Shown: positions 1,905-17,269 of the stretch, piece by piece
Layout: the number at the start of each line of letters is the position of its first letter
Numbering within the stretch: position 1 is the first letter of the stretch
IMG/VR virus record: IMGVR_UViG_3300036846_000994
Coordinates: 1 to 22,444 of that record
DNA length: 22,444 nucleotides
DNA from: a virus
Reading direction: 5' to 3' (one strand)
Position numbers and translations under genes: made by a program
The notes under the pieces: model-generated
Databases searched by the model: none
Seen by the model: only the letters and a program-made list of their open reading frames with translations
Told to the model about the DNA's origin: nothing

Positions 1905-3125
1905 TTAGTCCCCGAGCTGGACGTTCTCTCCCCACGGGGCCTCGGAGCCGCGCTCGCCGCTGAGCCAGAGGACCGGGAAGGGCTGGGGCTCGCCGAAGTC
2001 CGCCCGCGTCATCTCCATGTCGCTGAGGACGATGGCGCAGCGCGGCTGGTAGTTGTTGTCGTGGACGGCCTGCCAGATGGGCCGCATCGAGGTGCCGCCG
2101 TAGCCACGGACGGGAACCTCCCGGGGCAGCTCATCATCGGGGCCAAACTCGGTGACGTTGTGGACGCGGGTGTCGCACTGGATGAAGATCGTGCGCTCCG
2201 GCTTGACCTCCGAGAGGATGAGAGCGAGGAAGCCGAGGAAGCGGGGCACGAGGGTCCGGCAAGAGCCGCTGGTGTCGATGCCGATGACAATCTCACCGAT
2301 GCCCTGGCTGTGGAGCGAGGGGAGGATGAGGTTGCTGTGGATGGAGCGGCGGTTGGGCCGGGACCAGCTGTAGTCGTCCTTGCGGCACATCGACACGTAG
2401 TAGCGGATCAGGTCCCACGGGTTGAGGCGGGGCTTGACCGGGCGCACGAGGTGCTCATAGGAGCCGGGTAGGTGGCCTTGGCTCTTGGCGATCTCGGCGG
2501 CCTGACGGGCGATGATCGTCCACTTCCGTTCGAGGTCTTCGAGGATGGCGCGCTTTTCCTGGGCGGTAGCAGCTCCGCTGGTGGGGTCGGTCGGGTCATG
2601 GATGTCGCCGTCGAGGCCGCAGGGGGGAAGCTGGGGCTGGTTGGTTTTGTTCTCCTCGTAGAGTTGCTCTGCTGCCTTGCCCTTGTTTTGAGGGTTATGG
2701 AAGATGGCGTTGGCCTCCGGCGAACCGTGGTCGGGAGGCTCAAAGCCATGGAAGATCAGCTCCGGGTCGATCCGTTGGTCACAAGCGATGTTCCAGCCGA
2801 GGGGATCACGGGAACCACGACGCCAGCCGTCGCCCTTGGTGCAGTGCGAGGTTTCGTGGGCGATGGTGGCGATGAGTTGAGCGTCGCTGACCTGCGCCTT
2901 GTCGGCATAAACGAGGGGGTCGTAGATGATGTAGGTGCCGTCGGTGCCGATGTTGCCGCCGGCGAACTTGCCGAGGTGGGGGACGGGCTTGAGCTGGAGG
3001 TGAAGGGCCGCCGTCGCCCAGAAGGCGAAGGTGCATTTCCCGTTGGCGTCGTGGGTGGTGAGCATGTGGGACCGGGTGCGACGGATGCGGCGGTCGGCGA
3101 CGGCGATGGCTTCATCGAGGTTCAT
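1905..3125 (-). CDS. Putative metallopeptidase with VWA-like domain (406 aa)
   Basis: The ATG at 3125 is chosen because an AAGGAA ribosome binding site precedes it; the frame stays open to 3203 without support. Residues 90-94 read HETSH, an HExxH zinc motif, followed by the conserved-looking WNIACDQRID segment (111-120). A linker then leads to a VWA-like domain with a MIDAS-type DTSGS at 284-288, GGTS at 343-346 and LSDME at 367-371. This layout matches the DUF2201-type 'putative metallopeptidase plus VWA-like' proteins, whose usual partner is a MoxR AAA+ ATPase, present here as the 344-residue gene. VWA proteins of this kind act with the ATPase as adaptor or effector in remodelling metal-bound or protein complexes. 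The substrate in the phage is unknown. Confidence 0.85.
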   Translation of the reverse strand: MNLDEAIAVADRRIRRTRSHMLTTHDANGKCTFAFWATAALHLQLKPVPHLGKFAGGNIGTDGTYIIYDPLVYADKAQVSDAQLIATIAHETSHCTKGDGWRRGSRDPLGWNIACDQRIDPELIFHGFEPPDHGSPEANAIFHNPQNKGKAAEQLYEENKTNQPQLPPCGLDGDIHDPTDPTSGAATAQEKRAILEDLERKWTIIARQAAEIAKSQGHLPGSYEHLVRPVKPRLNPWDLIRYYVSMCRKDDYSWSRPNRRSIHSNLILPSLHSQGIGEIVIGIDTSGSCRTLVPRFLGFLALILSEVKPERTIFIQCDTRVHNVTEFGPDDELPREVPVRGYGGTSMRPIWQAVHDNNYQPRCAIVLSDMEMTRADFGEPQPFPVLWLSGERGSEAPWGENVQLGD

Positions 3126-3138
3126 GGTAGGGTTCCTT

Positions 3139-3167
3139 CTGCACAAAACCAGCAGCAATCGCAGTAT
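3139..3167. repeat. 29-bp direct repeat, copy 1
   Basis: This 29-base stretch begins CTGCACAAAACCAGCAGCAA and ends TCGCAGTAT. It is identical to 10467-10495, in the same orientation. Here it lies in the untranslated leader of the VWA gene, directly upstream of its ribosome binding site. It does not extend beyond 29 bases on either side. A perfect match of this length over 7.3 kb is not expected by chance. Confidence 0.85.
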
Positions 3168-3195
3168 GTTAGGCCGCGCGGCGAGCTTTTGGCGA

Positions 3196-3212
3196 TGCGA
3201 CACAGTGTCGCA
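3196..3212. promoter_or_regulatory. 17-bp palindromic operator-like site, unit C
   Basis: TGCGACACAGTGTCGCA is a perfect palindrome around one central base. It ends 70 nt before the first start codon of unit C (3125). Read leftward, its continuation (ATCGCCAA) is also shared with the site at 7595-7611, so similarity extends beyond the dyad. Related sites precede the other two leftward units. A dimeric phage repressor or activator is the likely binder. Confidence 0.65.
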
Positions 3213-3248
3213 AAGCCGAGCGAAGCGAGGCTGCCGCGCGGCATTTTG

Positions 3249-3416
3249 TCAATTGCAGACGGTGGTGTTGCCGATGCGTTGGCACGTCTGCCGCTGGCCG
3301 CTCATGGCGTCGGAGCAGATCGTCGTGTTACCGACTCGCTGGCAGACCCATGTTGCCTTCGCCGGGGTGGTGTAGGCGATGGCGAGTAGTGCAATGGTGA
3401 GGTAGTACTTCATCAT
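3249..3416 (-). CDS. Small secreted Cys-repeat peptide (55 aa)
   Basis: The N-terminus MMKYYLTIALLAIAYTTPAK is a convincing signal peptide, with cleavage likely after the AKA at residues 19-21. The mature 34 residues contain two copies of the same unit, CQRVGNTTICSD and CQRIGNTTVCN, with four cysteines that could form two disulfides. A ribosome binding site (GGGAG, 9 nt) and the start just 1 nt past the upstream stop support translation as the last gene of unit B. A secreted Cys-rich peptide would act in the periplasm or outside the cell. Possible roles are superinfection exclusion, lysis control or inhibition of a host envelope enzyme, all guesses. I do not recognise the family. ATG at 3413 is an alternative start. 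Confidence 0.75.
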   Translation of the reverse strand: MMKYYLTIALLAIAYTTPAKATWVCQRVGNTTICSDAMSGQRQTCQRIGNTTVCN

Positions 3417-3417
3417 G

Positions 3418-3969
3418 TCAGCGAACTCCCTGTGTCAGCATGGTGTAGAGGGCGAGGGTGGCTTCGAGGGGGAAGGCCGGGCAGGGGTAAGCGCCTGCCT
3501 TCCACTTCTCGACGAGAAGCTCGTAGGCTTCCGGCCATGACTCCTTGAGGACTTCGACCGAGCGGATGGAGCCGAGGGTCGCTGTCAACTTGCGGTCCAA
3601 CTCCTCCAGGTCTGCGTGGTGCTTCTGGATGACGGCGGTGTGAGCGACGATCCGGTCGGCCAGGGGATTGGAGATTGCCATCTCGCTGTTGGTGCTAGCG
3701 GGCAGCGGCAAAGGCTCTAGGAAGCGGAGCGTCGTCCAGTGCGGCACCTTGGCGTGAATGTAGCTGTTGGTGTGCAGCCAGCCGGCGGGAACGGCAGCGA
3801 ACTTGGCCGCCCAGTTGGAGCCGAAGTTCTCGGCCAGGACGGCACGGGCCAGGGCGTCCTCGGCCTCTATGATGGGGACCCAGGCTTCGCGGCGGGCCTT
3901 GCCGACAAGTGTTAGGCGGAGGTCCTTGCGGGCAGAGGGGGTGAGAGGTGTCTTGCGGGTCTTTTCCAT
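3418..3969 (-). CDS. Nmad5-like phage protein (183 aa)
   Basis: The start at 3969 has AGGAG at about 9 nt and follows the DUF3150 gene by 6 nt. The N-terminus (LTPSARKDLRLTLVGKA, then a helix with EAEDALARAVL) and the LPxGW-like PAGWLHTNSYI segment recall Nmad5 proteins, a family named for association with nucleotide modification in phages. The C-terminal SVEVLKESWPEAYELL helix also fits what I remember of that family. The match is by memory of pattern only. If right, it would tie the AAA+/VWA cassette to DNA modification or counter-defence, but no modifying enzyme is visible in this window. No signal peptide or membrane segment is seen. Confidence 0.5.
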   Translation of the reverse strand: MEKTRKTPLTPSARKDLRLTLVGKARREAWVPIIEAEDALARAVLAENFGSNWAAKFAAVPAGWLHTNSYIHAKVPHWTTLRFLEPLPLPASTNSEMAISNPLADRIVAHTAVIQKHHADLEELDRKLTATLGSIRSVEVLKESWPEAYELLVEKWKAGAYPCPAFPLEATLALYTMLTQGVR

Positions 3970-3975
3970 GGCTGG

Positions 3976-4860
3976 CTACTCCTGTGGGTTGAGGACGGCG
4001 CGAAGCTGGTCGAGGAGGTCGACCGCCTCGTCTTTCACTTGCTCGCGAAGGTAATCGTCCTTCTTGAGGTCGTCGGGCGTGTAGCCGCAGAGCTTGGTGG
4101 CGAGGGCGACACGCATGGCTTCGAGGGCCGGGTCCTTGGTGATGTTGAGGCGGCTGAGCCGGTCGGTGAGTTCTGAGAGGTTGCCGATGAGGCTGTCGTG
4201 GATGCGGCCCTTGATGACCTTGCCGTCGGCGTCCTTCTCGTACTCGGAGAGGCGGTCGACGATCCGAGTGACAGCATCCGTCATCTCCTGCCACATGAAG
4301 GACTGCATCCGCAGGATGTCGGCATTGTTTTGCTCGACAAGGGAGAGGCGGATGGCCTCGGCCTCGTCCTCGGCGACACCGGCGCGGAAGTCCTCGGCAT
4401 CGGGCACGCCGAAGATTTCGACGGAGACGGCGAAGCGGGCCTGGACCTGTTCGCGGGTCGGGTAGTCGAACTCGCGGGCCAGGTCGCCCAAGGCGCGCTG
4501 GCCGTTGGCGACGTGCTGGGACCAGCGAAGGGTCAGGGCGTTGACGGCGGCCTCGAACTCCATCCGGCGGATGCGCCAGCCCTCGGTGAAGGGGAAGAAG
4601 TTCTCCACAGGGAGGAGGGTGACACCATCCCAGCGCCAGGGCAGGGTTTCCGCACGGACAAAGGAACGGAGGCCGTTGGCCGCTGTGTGGATGGGATCGA
4701 TGGCCGCCTTGGCGATCAAGTACTTGGTGGTCTTGACCTGATGCCGGTCGGCCTTGTGCCGCTCGGCGGTGTCTTTTGACGCTGCGCGGTCGAGAACTTC
4801 CCCTCGCCATACGGAGATCGAAGGACGGACCAGCATGGCGCGTTCGGTAAGCAGTGACAT
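3976..4860 (-). CDS. DUF3150-like protein of the MoxR/VWA cassette (294 aa)
   Basis: The ATG at 4860 has a textbook AGGAGG ribosome binding site. The longer frame to 5247 overlaps the AAA+ gene and is discarded. The protein is soluble and mostly helical. It has AMLVRPSISVWRGEVLDR at the start, the motif LPWRWDGVTLLPVENFFPF near residues 74-92, and NLSELTDRLSRLNITKDP followed by charged helices at the end. These features fit DUF3150-like proteins, which are commonly found next to MoxR ATPases and VWA proteins. It sits exactly between the AAA+ gene and the rest of the cassette. It probably bridges the ATPase and VWA component or binds the substrate, but this is inferred from context. Confidence 0.7.
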   Translation of the reverse strand: MSLLTERAMLVRPSISVWRGEVLDRAASKDTAERHKADRHQVKTTKYLIAKAAIDPIHTAANGLRSFVRAETLPWRWDGVTLLPVENFFPFTEGWRIRRMEFEAAVNALTLRWSQHVANGQRALGDLAREFDYPTREQVQARFAVSVEIFGVPDAEDFRAGVAEDEAEAIRLSLVEQNNADILRMQSFMWQEMTDAVTRIVDRLSEYEKDADGKVIKGRIHDSLIGNLSELTDRLSRLNITKDPALEAMRVALATKLCGYTPDDLKKDDYLREQVKDEAVDLLDQLRAVLNPQE

Positions 4861-4883: not shown

Positions 4884-5918
4884 TTAAGAGAGCAGGTCCT
4901 GGAACTTGGCGCAGAAGCGGATGAAGGCACCGCTCTTCTGGAGCCGCTGGTAGCGGTTCTGTTCCAGGGGAGGGAGGGCCTTGAGGCGGGCGGCATCGAC
5001 CGCTAGAGCGCTGCGGACGGTGTAGACCGCGAACTCCGGTTCCACGCGGTCGAGATAGCGGACGATGCGGTCGAAGTTGTTGTTGGTGGCGGCGGAAGAG
5101 AGGGCGGTTGTGACCACGTAGAGCGCGCCGGGGTTGGTGGGGACACGCGCCGTGTCGGGATTGGCGAGGATTTGGGCGACGGAGACAAGTTCCGAGGCCA
5201 TGCTGGCGAAGGCGACGAACTCGGTGGCCGGTCCCTCGCCCACCCATCCCTTGATCGCCTCGAACGGGGGAATAGAGGGGGCGTAGGCGTTGCAGACCTT
5301 GGACAACTCGTCCCAGGTGCGGGGGCAGGCGAAGGGGCCGGGAACCTCGGGCTTGAAGTTCACGAAGTTCATCGGAGCGTGTTGGATGAAGGCGCGGACC
5401 AGGACGGAGCCGCCGGTCGCCGCCATGTGCTGGGTCCAGCCGTCCCTGTCGGGCTCGAACTCCAGCCAGCCCATCTTGCTGACGAGGGGCTTTGGCATCT
5501 GCTGGACGGCGGCCCGGTCCTCAGCCCGGTTGCCGGTGGCGACGATCATCCAGTCGGGGCCGATGTTGTCCCGCTCGTAGACCGTGCGATAGGCGGCCGC
5601 CTGGGTTAGCGGGGGAGCGGTGGGCAGGTCGTCGAAGAGGATGAAGCCAGCGCCGGTCTTGGGTACGAGGTCGCTGAAGGCTATGCGGCGCGCTTCCCCA
5701 TCAATGATGGCCGGGAGGCCGCCGAAGTCGAGGGGGTCGACCACCGTCATCTGAATGGCGCGGAAGGCGAAGTTGGGGATGGTTTCCTCGATCACAGAGG
5801 CGGCGGCCCGGACACAGGCGGACTTGCCGATGCCGGGGGGGCCGGAGAGGTAGGTGGTCTGGCGGAGGCCAGCCATGTAGAGCTTGGTGAGGTGATCGAC
5901 TACCTGGTTGAAGATCAT
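4884..5918 (-). CDS. MoxR/CobS-like AAA+ ATPase (344 aa)
   Basis: Walker A is GPPGIGKS (residues 26-33), Walker B is FILFDD (92-97) and sensor 1 is the Asn of IVATGN (130). The order and the short N-terminal helix before Walker A are typical of MoxR-type AAA+ proteins, which form rings and remodel partners together with a VWA protein. The partner is probably the 406-residue HExxH/VWA protein in unit C. The second half is helical with low similarity to anything I can name. The start at 5918 has AGAAGGA upstream. It is the first gene of unit B, 60 nt after an operator-like site, so its expression probably sets that of the whole cassette. Confidence 0.9.
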   Translation of the reverse strand: MIFNQVVDHLTKLYMAGLRQTTYLSGPPGIGKSACVRAAASVIEETIPNFAFRAIQMTVVDPLDFGGLPAIIDGEARRIAFSDLVPKTGAGFILFDDLPTAPPLTQAAAYRTVYERDNIGPDWMIVATGNRAEDRAAVQQMPKPLVSKMGWLEFEPDRDGWTQHMAATGGSVLVRAFIQHAPMNFVNFKPEVPGPFACPRTWDELSKVCNAYAPSIPPFEAIKGWVGEGPATEFVAFASMASELVSVAQILANPDTARVPTNPGALYVVTTALSSAATNNNFDRIVRYLDRVEPEFAVYTVRSALAVDAARLKALPPLEQNRYQRLQKSGAFIRFCAKFQDLLS

Positions 5919-6669: not shown

Positions 6670-6854
6670 GGGTGCCATCCGGGGGCAACATGCGCGACCC
6701 AGCCGAGGAGATCGTCGAGGTAGCGCCCGAGGGCGAAGCCGGCGGCCGCGCACAGGAGCATGGCGAGCGCCAGCGTGAGCCAGCGCAGCCAAGGCCGGGG
6801 AGGCGCGGATACGTGGGGTATCCGCTCCAAGCCCGGTATGTGGTCTAGGCTCAC
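6666..6854 (-). CDS. Small single-pass membrane protein (62 aa)
   Basis: A GTG start at 6854 overlaps the previous stop as GTGA, with GAGGT nearby as ribosome binding site. Residues 1-23 are Pro/Arg-rich, residues about 24-43 are a strong membrane helix (LRWLTLALAMLLCAAAGFAL), and the tail is short. The positive charge before the helix suggests an inner-membrane protein with the N-terminus in the cytoplasm. A holin- or spanin-like role cannot be excluded, but the position among early genes argues against it. Its last codons contain the third copy of a 21-bp repeat found in the control region. Confidence 0.65.
   Translation of the reverse strand: MSLDHIPGLERIPHVSAPPRPWLRWLTLALAMLLCAAAGFALGRYLDDLLGWVAHVAPGWHP
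6681..6701. repeat. 21-bp repeat, copy in coding sequence
   Basis: This copy begins GGGGGCAACATGCGCGACCC and matches the core of the two control-region copies (7727-7747, 7815-7835). Here it encodes part of the C-terminus of the small membrane protein and sits just upstream of the start of the next leftward gene. Confidence 0.8.
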
Positions 6855-7722: not shown

Positions 7723-7750
7723 AGGAGGGGGCAACATGCGCGACCCACCC
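7723..7750. repeat. 28-bp direct repeat, copy 1
   Basis: The repeat begins AGGAGGGGGCAACATGCGCG and ends ACCCACCC. It is identical to 7811-7838, and the two copies start 88 bases apart. A 21-base core also occurs at 6681-6701. Confidence 0.85.
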
Positions 7751-7814: not shown

Positions 7815-7838
7815 GGGGGCAACATGCGCGACCCACCC
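7811..7838. repeat. 28-bp direct repeat, copy 2
   Basis: This copy is identical to 7723-7750 and overlaps the last four bases of the 15-bp hairpin. Confidence 0.85.
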
Positions 7839-10466: not shown

Positions 10467-10495
10467 CTGCACAAAACCAGCAGCAATCGCAGTAT
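10467..10495. repeat. 29-bp direct repeat, copy 2
   Basis: It is identical to 3139-3167 and in the same orientation. Here it lies in the leader of the late block, while copy 1 lies in the leader of unit C on the opposite transcription strand. Confidence 0.85.
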
Positions 10496-14688: not shown

Positions 14689-15029
14689 GCGGACCCGGCC
14701 CCTACAACCTGGTGATCTACCGGGGGGACACCGCCACCTGGGAGTTTGTGCTGTGGGAGGATGCCGCCAAGACGGTGCCCTTCGACCTCACGAACGCAAC
14801 AGCGAAAGCTGAAATCCGCAACCGGCCCGGCGGCGTCCTGCTGGTCACCCTGACCACCAGCATCACCATGCCGAACATAATCAACGTCTTCTTGACCGAA
14901 GCCAACAGCCTGGCGCTCAACGGCGGCGTCTTTGCGTGGGACCTACCGGTGACTATGTCGGGAGGCACCGTGCAGACCATGGTGGCGGGGCCTGTCACGG
15001 TGACGGAGGATGTAACAGGGAGCGTGTGA
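14685..15029 (+). CDS. BppU-like N-terminal-domain protein (114 aa)
   Basis: GTG at 14685 overlaps the previous stop as GTGA, with AGGA upstream. The pattern [14 protein letters not shown], then [30 protein letters not shown] and [20 protein letters not shown] fits the N-terminal domain family seen in baseplate upper proteins and many phage tail genes. It is a beta-rich virion protein, probably linking the fibre to the tail. It is followed directly by the fibre gene (TGATG overlap). Confidence 0.8.
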
Positions 15030-17269
15030 TGGCCTTCACCGATGTCGCCGTTGTCGATGTCGTTCCGCCGCCGCCCATCGTGGTCGATGTGGTGGTGCCG
15101 CCGGGTGTCCAGGTGGTGGAGGTTATCGCTGGGACCCAGGGTCCGCAGGGAGTGCCCGGCCCCCCAGGTCTCAATGGTGCCGTAGGGCCGGTGGGGCCGC
15201 CGGGTACTCCCGGAGGGCCGCCGGGTCCAACGGGTCCGGCCGGCGTGAATGGTGCCACTGGTGCCACTGGCGCTCCTGGCCCACCGGGGGGTCCGACTGG
15301 ACCGACTGGACCGGCAGGCCCTACGGGTTCCACAGGCGTACCAGGACCCATCGGCCCTGCTGGAGCTACCGGCGCTAATGGGCCTGCTGGACCGACGGGT
15401 GCCACAGGAGCCGCATCTACGGTACCAGGACCGACGGGACCCACTGGTGCAACGGGGGCGACGGGTGCCACCGGTGCAACAGGGGCGACGGGAGCCGCAT
15501 CTACAGTACCGGGACCAACTGGGCCAACCGGGGCCACAGGTGCTACCGGAGCCACGGGTGCGCCGCAGACAGCCGCCAACCCGACAGCCCAGGTCAGCGG
15601 CACCGTTGTCAATGGCAGTGCAACCACATACATGCGCTCCGACGCAGCCCCATCGCTGGCGAATACTACCGTGACGGCGGGTTCTTATACACTAGCCTCG
15701 ATCACGGTGGATGCCCAAGGGCGACTGACGGACGCCTCCAGTGGCACGGGCAGTGGAGGAGTAACCAGCATCACTGCTGGCACTGGGCTCGCGGGCGGTA
15801 CCATTACCACAACCGGGACCATATCGCTGACGACACCTGTCGTCGTCGCTAATGGCGGCACCGGGCAGACAAACCTGGCGGCAAACAATGTCCTGGTAGG
15901 TAACGGCACCTCGGCGGTCTCTCTCGTCGCTCCCGGCGGCAACGGCGCGATCTTCGCCAGCAACGGCTCGGTGTCGGTCCCGTCCTACCGTTCACTGACC
16001 GCATTGCTCGATGCTATGGTTGGCACCGGCACCCAAGGGCAGATTATCTATCGCGGGACTGCGGTTTGGCAGGCGCTGGCTCCCGGTACAGCCGGTCAGA
16101 CGATGCTATCGGGCGGTTCCGCTGCTAATGTGTCCTGGGGTGCGGTCAGCCTGACGGCAGGTGTAAGCGGCACGCTGCCTGTCGCCAATGGCGGCACCGG
16201 GCAAACGACGCTTACTGCCAATGCGGTGCTGGTTGGTAACGGCACTTCTGCCGTTACCGCGTCCGCCATTACCAGTGACAATGGCTCGACGTTGCGGGTG
16301 ACAACCAATCAAGTTATTGGGCCGGCGGTCACGGGACCGGCTGTACACAGCTTGGTGATAAACGACACGGCGACCCAGCCGCAACCGGGCTATGCTGTCT
16401 CTGGGCGGCTCACCATCGCGTCTGAAACGACAAATCCGATGCTGTTGCTTGATGGCTACGGACCTAACACTAACTATCCGTATATCCTGCCACGTGTGGC
16501 ACGGGGGACGGCGGCTGCTCCAGCTGCTATGGCTTCGGGTGATTTTCTTCTGCAAACCGCCGCACAGGCTTACAACGGGACAGCTTATTCCGGTGCCGCC
16601 AGCATCGCAATGTTAACGACTGAAGCGTGGTCGGCTGGACATCAAGGGACTGAAATCACTTTTAGCACAATCCCTGCTGGGACCACTGCGGGGGTGCAAT
16701 CGTTGATCCTCAGCGGCAACAGCGCAACATTCTCCGGCACTGTGACGACAACAGGTATCACTATCGCCCCCGCCGGCACCGCTGATGCGCATATAACCCT
16801 TACAACATCAGCCAGAAGTTGGTTATTCGGCGGGCAGGGATCGGCAAGCCCCGATCCCAACTCCTGGATTATCTACGACAACACAGTTGGTGCCTTCCGC
16901 TTTGTCATCGATACCGCCGGCGTCACCTACAACACGTCCGGCAGTTGGACGGCAATCAGCGATCCTCGCGTTAAGACCGATATGGCTTCCTACACTGCCG
17001 GTCTGAGCGAGATCGAGCAGCTTGAGCCGATCACCTATCGTTACAACGGTGAGGGCGGCACACCGGAAGATGACGAGAGCGTCACCCGCTACGGCCTCGA
17101 TGCACAGGCGACACAGGTGGTCATGCCGGAACTTGTTGGTGAGCGCAGCGGCTACTTGTCGCTCGACAGTGGCCCGCTGATCTACGCGTTGTGCAACGCA
17201 GTCAAGGAGCTGTCGGCCCAGAACGCTGACCTCGCCGCCCGTCTCACAGCTCTTGAGAAGGCACGCTAG
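15029..17269 (+). CDS. Collagen-like tail fibre with S74 chaperone domain (746 aa)
   Basis: ATG at 15029 ([20 protein letters not shown]) has GGGAG upstream and overlaps the previous stop. Residues about 35-178 are Gly-X-Y collagen-like triplets. A DNA-level duplication within them repeats [20 protein letters not shown]. Residues about 300-420 contain two fibre repeats of the type [14 protein letters not shown]. The C-terminal 103 residues form a peptidase S74 intramolecular chaperone: SDPRVKTD with the catalytic Ser 644 and Lys 649, TYRYN, YGLDAQ and a final coiled coil. In this family the domain helps the fibre trimerise and then cuts itself off just before the serine. The stop is TAG. Confidence 0.9.
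15404..15560 (+). repeat. Internal repeat within the collagen-like region
   Basis: Two near-identical DNA units begin GGAGCCGCATCTAC (15410 and 15490) and encode the same [20 protein letters not shown] stretch, with synonymous differences. Slippage or recombination between them would change shaft length in steps of about 80 bases. Confidence 0.7.

Follow-up and report, generated by a model that had tools for sequence, protein, structure and literature searches.

The question raised by this locus is whether a 55-codon open reading frame (ORF) on the minus strand of a viral DNA record encodes a genuine secreted protein and, if so, to which proteins it is related and what it may do for the phage. 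The DNA analysed, hereafter the window, is the complete IMG/VR virus record IMGVR_UViG_3300036846_000994 (22,444 bp). Since the contig of one relative measures 57 kb, the window may cover only part of the phage genome.

Structure of the peptide gene

The ORF starts with an ATG one base past the stop codon of the preceding gene, and an AGGGAG ribosome-binding site lies 9 nt upstream of this first ATG (Table 1). Its 55 codons read MMKYYLTIALLAIAYTTPAKA and then TWVCQRVGNTTICSDAMSGQRQTCQRIGNTTVCN. The coordinates and sequence in the initial annotation were correct, and the strand, which it left unstated, is the minus strand. The signal sequence that it had claimed was recognised as Sec-type by inspection and hydropathy, with K in the n-region, a mean Kyte-Doolittle hydropathy of 2.38 over residues 6-15, and AKA next, so that export of the peptide is predicted. 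By direct reading the peptide has no lipobox, as the signal ends in AKA and the first cysteine is residue 25, after TWV; the product is therefore not a lipoprotein of the Llp/Rtp45 type.

The mature peptide TWVCQRVGNTTICSDAMSGQRQTCQRIGNTTVCN (34 residues) is mildly basic (pI 8.5, charge +1.4 at pH 7) and carries two CQR[VI]GNTT[IV]C units. The units, previously called near-identical, are alike at 8 of 10 residues and 23 of 30 bases. What had been described as a duplicated four-cysteine unit has two cysteines per unit, four in total. Unit 2 together with N55 fits the conserved last unit of the family described below, C-x3-G-N-x-T-[YFV]-C-N-end in the alignments, and the connector between the units has 10 residues versus the 5-residue SDGxx connector in six-unit members. 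Common gene finders accept 55-codon ORFs, so the gene is not, as had been supposed, too short for ordinary gene calling. The picture of a small, secreted and probably disulfide-bonded protein within a phage gene cluster was retained as a prediction.

Table 1. Coordinates of the peptide gene, its parts and its neighbours in the window
Feature	Position	Strand	Basis or remark
AAA+ ATPase (phrog_1297), cluster start	4884..5918	-	Profile search
293-aa gene, no family matched	3976..4857	-	Profile search
Nmad5-like gene, directly upstream of the peptide	3418..3969	-	Partial similarity to PF18757, 27.8 bits versus a cut-off of 27
Ribosome-binding site AGGGAG	3426..3431	-	Conserved in L001 and L002
CDS of the 55-aa peptide, predicted to be secreted and to form two hairpins	3249..3416	-	Stop codon 3249-3251; frame conserved in L001 and L002, under purifying selection
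Signal sequence MMKYYLTIALLAIAYTTPAKA, Sec-type (predicted), residues 1-21, no lipobox	3354..3416	-	Direct reading and hydropathy
Unit 1, CQRVGNTTIC, residues 25-34	3315..3344	-	Predicted disulfide-closed beta-hairpin with G-N turn; AlphaFold2 strands and cysteine pairing
Connector SDAMSGQRQT, 10 residues, between the units	3285..3314	-	Alignment A4
Unit 2, CQRIGNTTVC, residues 45-54, then N55 at the C-terminus	3255..3284	-	Alignments A1, A4 and A5; AlphaFold2 strands
28-nt element ATACTGCGATTGCTGCTGGTTTTGTGCA	3140..3167	-	Lies in the 123-nt gap between the peptide and DUF2201 genes; repeat dispersed in this phage group
DUF2201 metallopeptidase and VWA-like gene (phrog_1314), next downstream	1905..3125	-	Profile search

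Conservation of the reading frame

Loss of the reading frame in closely related phages had been named beforehand as grounds for rejecting the gene; of the three close relatives, two retain the frame, with mainly synonymous changes. It is intact in the related viral contigs L001 and L002, at about 88-92% DNA identity. The window and L001 differ by 14 synonymous and 5 non-synonymous changes (dN/dS 0.09; Fisher test for synonymous excess, p = 1e-6), the window and L002 by 11 and 5 (dN/dS 0.12; p = 7e-5), and the L001-L002 pair gave a dN/dS of 0.36 (p = 0.04). None of 200 dinucleotide shuffles of the window contained a frame of at least 40 aa with two C-x8-C units at 7/10 identity, and the real window contains one. 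The third relative, L115, which was located via the shared 28-nt element, encodes the AAA+, 293-aa, Nmad5-like and DUF2201 genes at 77-96% protein identity and has no peptide between the Nmad5-like and DUF2201 genes. Because L115 keeps the flanking genes without the peptide, the peptide gene is accessory.

That the ORF arose by chance or in antisense and is no gene is hardly credible. The frame is short, the DNA is GC-rich with many overlapping ORFs and the peptide is missing in L115, but divergence is synonymous-biased, the ribosome-binding site is conserved, distant homologues exist and the shuffles gave no equivalent. The ORF is a real, accessory phage gene.

Gene cluster and intergenic elements

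The order on the minus strand is AAA+ ATPase, 293-aa gene, Nmad5-like gene, peptide gene and DUF2201/VWA gene. The peptide gene had been taken for the last gene of the AAA+ unit; the DUF2201/VWA gene follows it on the same strand after 123 nt, and the peptide gene thus lies inside the AAA+/VWA cluster and does not close it. A separate promoter might lie in the 123-nt gap, which contains the 28-nt element; a search of the gap for sigma-70-like sites gave none.

The element ATACTGCGATTGCTGCTGGTTTTGTGCA has a second exact 28-nt copy in the window (10468-10495, minus strand) and also occurs in L016, L020 and L113-L119, all matches being in contigs of one metagenome (3300036846). It precedes the DUF2201 gene and also lies close to the terminase gene, and may be a regulatory site. 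The gap (3126-3248) also contains the palindrome GCCGCGCGGC twice, likewise found in L001 and L002. The neighbouring Nmad5-like gene has 74-78% identity among close relatives versus 92-97% for the surrounding genes, pointing to faster divergence. Mutation of nmad5 allows Dhillonvirus phages to escape the Tmn defence (PMC11846954). Elsewhere in the window, three exact copies of GGCAACATGCGCGACCCA lie on the plus strand (6684-6701, 7730-7747 and 7818-7835; 0.07 expected by chance), and 14936-17269 (plus strand) encodes a protein resembling tail fibres, with collagen repeats and, at its C-terminus, a Peptidase_S74 chaperone domain.

A repeat family related to the peptide

Scans with back-translated motifs, together with alignments, identified secreted proteins built of repeats of the form x-Q-x-[IV]-G-N-x-T-[YF]-x. 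The family unit has ten residues with a central G-N turn and a second strand of the form T-x-aliphatic/aromatic, to which the window peptide conforms; other members carry signal sequences ending in A-x-A, read by eye. Two-unit forms were found in the window, L001, L002, L067, L068, L069, L072 and L073, and in L070 with one cysteine pair. L100 and L101 have three units and L097-L099 about five. The six-unit form comprised 21 aligned sequences with turn glycines 15 residues apart (alignment A5), from phages, Bradyrhizobium, Halomonas and a betaproteobacterial MAG; its count may have been partly favoured by the six-unit queries, though longer forms should also have surfaced. Having two units and not the six of the long form, the window peptide represents, judged by its sequence, the shortest type within this family of secreted hairpin-repeat proteins, which has no name.

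Among cellular genomes, prevalence was low: the family was present in 6 of 60 Bradyrhizobium genomes and, within the Halomonas class (Gammaproteobacteria), in 3 of 229, of which one was the centre genome and another gave a weak match containing a stop. When the exact DNA pattern of the last unit was searched in 385 Bradyrhizobium-class and 299 Pseudomonadota-phylum genomes, only frames without the repeat matched beyond the centre genomes, which shows that its occurrence in cells is sporadic. Strict CxxxxGNTTxC matches in viral contigs beyond the known relatives were rejected as chance or antisense frames or unrelated proteins.

The window peptide gave no tblastn match to cultured phages at E 10. 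Two cultured-phage proteins, both annotated merely as hypothetical, likewise have a signal-like N-terminus and xQx[IV]GNxT[YF]x units. HOU08_gp043 (YP_009811157.1) of Dickeya jumbo phage vB_DsoM_JA29 shares the terminal C-x3-GN-x-TFCN unit but differs in having six units, of which the last alone carries cysteines. The Acidovorax phage AP1 protein UIS65443.1, a marginal match, differs in spacing and in having no cysteine pair in the last unit. A term search of the paper on the Dickeya phage found no virion proteomics.

No entry of Pfam-A, NCBIfam or PHROGs matched the window peptide at the curated cut-off or at E <= 0.001; in Pfam there was no match at E 10, and one PHROG of unknown function matched at E 0.17. 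A six-unit relative matched the unnamed phrog_25132 (E 6e-5), and the matches of other relatives were sub-threshold, those to PAAR, Prion, Myticin and similar Pfam families being under the cut-off and not accepted. Entries of Pseudomonas putida phages (H29-H37) annotated as 'PAAR motif of membrane protein' weakly matched the hairpin repeat (E 0.4-0.8); as six-unit members also give sub-threshold PAAR matches, that annotation may be an artefact of the repeat. No family of solved structures claims the hairpin-repeat family. Searches of open-licence literature, whose silence is weak evidence, gave no description of it, and the ten papers listed among 79 matching the unit motif were unrelated. The family thus has no named entry in the curated libraries searched.

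In a profile search of ten neighbour genes of family members, an Erf-like annealing protein adjoined L067, L069, L072 and L076, an exonuclease adjoined L069 and L072, and an SSB lay near L077. Taken as individual cases, they are suggestive of a tendency of the family to sit with recombination genes. The six-unit relatives L088, L090 and L091 lie amid probable portal and head genes (sequence read by eye), and L087 has an integrase-like neighbour, read from the sequence. Some six-unit copies in bacterial chromosomes lie outside prophage-like surroundings. The betaproteobacterial six-unit gene (L054, 71-1351) is found among several small genes with signal-like N-termini.

Predicted fold and cysteine pairing

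AlphaFold2 modelled the mature window peptide, from 34 residues and 8 aligned sequences, with a pLDDT of 86.6 and a pTM of 0.44. Strands at residues 2-7, 10-15, 21-27 and 30-33 of the mature peptide make up two predicted beta-hairpins. A six-unit member modelled with 21 sequences gave twelve strands (pLDDT 93.1, pTM 0.69). PDB fold searches with the six-unit model returned nothing significant (best Foldseek E 0.15; best Z 6.8), and the best match in BFVD had an E of 0.027. YD/Rhs, teneurin, MORN and CPAP G-box sheets are antiparallel beta-hairpin repeats, as in the six-unit model, but their matches to it were not significant (Foldseek E at least 0.15; Z 4-5), and their motifs and sizes are different. 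Porins and designed barrels were also among the fold matches (Z < 8), for which reason a closed barrel was considered as an alternative to an open sheet for the six-unit form. Sequence matches to solved structures (Intimin, E 0.018; viral fusion proteins) were weak and attributed to composition.

Among 159 units parsed from 36 proteins, cysteine occurred at both positions 1 and 10 in 46, at only one of them in none and at neither in 113; the parser was a simple pattern that missed some degenerate units, and the 36 proteins include close relatives, so that the counts are not independent events. Most six-unit members have a cysteine pair in the last unit only, which leaves pairing within the unit as the sole option there. 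The simplest reading of the window peptide is that each C-x8-C disulfide would likewise close its own hairpin; that disulfides form at all we infer.

Possible functions

Our best guess at the role of the peptide, a tentative one drawn by analogy, is superinfection exclusion or another interaction with the envelope. The phage would express the peptide together with the AAA+/VWA cluster, and Sec would export it in soluble, most likely periplasmic form, where the disulfide machinery would lock both hairpins. Their rigid, exposed strands could then bind a periplasmic or outer-membrane protein, leading to superinfection exclusion or some other envelope change, on the model of Rtp45 and other small exclusion proteins. 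Expression early in infection, contact through exposed strands and the biological role itself are likewise points that we infer.

Three precedents make an envelope role plausible. The two functions proposed in the initial annotation, a block of superinfection and inhibition of an envelope enzyme, would be compatible with the anatomy of the peptide and with two of these precedents, Spackle and Rtp45. Rtp45 of phage Rtp is an exclusion lipoprotein of ~6 kDa; it has a Cys30-Cys38 disulfide and a hairpin that is beta-stranded in part, and it joins a strand of LptD in a sheet (PMC12685063). Compared by description, the window peptide would share its size of about 6 kDa, disulfide-bearing hairpin and periplasmic location, but Rtp45 is lipid-anchored with one C-x7-C, whereas the peptide has no lipobox and two C-x8-C units. 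T4 Spackle (gp61.3) is an early periplasmic exclusion protein that inhibits the gp5 lysozyme domain (PMC7677548), and the peptide would likewise be a small periplasmic phage protein, early if its assumed expression is right; no profile match between the two was found in the Pfam and PHROG searches. Thanatin is a 21-residue insect peptide with a single-disulfide beta-hairpin that acts on periplasmic LptA (PMC11720011); a disulfide-closed hairpin is predicted in the window peptide as well, though the sequences are unrelated. Against an exclusion role stand the missing lipobox, the lack of a match to a curated exclusion-protein family and the varying gene position between phages, and the six-unit copies outside prophage-like surroundings argue that the role in the envelope is a general one and not confined to exclusion.

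Two alternatives rank close behind exclusion or envelope interaction. It is doubtful, but conceivable, that the gene is a moron benefiting the host, sharing the job of the bacterial copies in envelope stability or surface properties and not directed at phages. The existence of six-unit members in chromosomes that share the cap units, the sporadic distribution (6/60 Bradyrhizobium; 3/229 Gammaproteobacteria, one weak) and the absence from a close phage relative would agree with this, but the two-unit form was found only in phage records in this analysis, and the window genes examined included no recognisable integrase, so that the phage may be lytic and lysogen fitness of little use to it. Rather doubtful, too, is that the peptide, as the phage takes over the host, blocks or diverts one of the processes of the envelope, such as LPS transport, assembly of the outer membrane or the action of a murein enzyme. 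The disulfide-closed hairpin would then supply an extra strand to a beta-protein of the periplasm, in the way thanatin does with LptA. The predicted disulfide-closed hairpins and mildly basic mature peptide (pI 8.5) fit such an inhibitor, and single-disulfide hairpin peptides that bind LptA are known (thanatin; PMC11720011, PMC7237710); no sequence relation to thanatin was found, however, and bacterial six-unit chromosomal copies would inhibit their own carriers.

The remaining roles fare worse. That the product is an accessory protein of the virion or tail, its secretion only apparent, is suggested by the six-unit relatives between probable portal and head genes (L088, L090 and L091), but is improbable given signal-like N-termini across the whole family and the place of the window gene in the minus-strand AAA+/VWA cluster, separate from the plus-strand structural genes. 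A secreted antibacterial peptide acting on competitors is more improbable still: size, basic charge and predicted disulfide-closed hairpins resemble antimicrobial hairpins, but the charge is just +1.4 at pH 7, the surface is neutral and rich in Asn, Thr and Gln, and no adjoining immunity gene was recognised. Returning to an envelope interaction, a long shot is that the family as a whole would be a phage-spread class of disulfide-capped hairpins that dock by strand addition on one conserved envelope machine, three copies of the two-unit form or two of the three-unit form assembling into a six-unit surface.

Small secreted phage proteins can decide which phage next infects a cell, and most of them are unnamed. 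From one 55-residue ORF, the analysis leads to a family across metagenomic phages, cultured Dickeya and, marginally, Paracidovorax phages and some bacterial chromosomes. The family offers an exact structural rule, the pairing of cysteines at positions 1 and 10 of a unit, and its long form has in addition a fixed number of units. Its two-unit form is small enough for synthesis, folding and direct testing, and L115, a close relative without the gene, provides a natural comparison.
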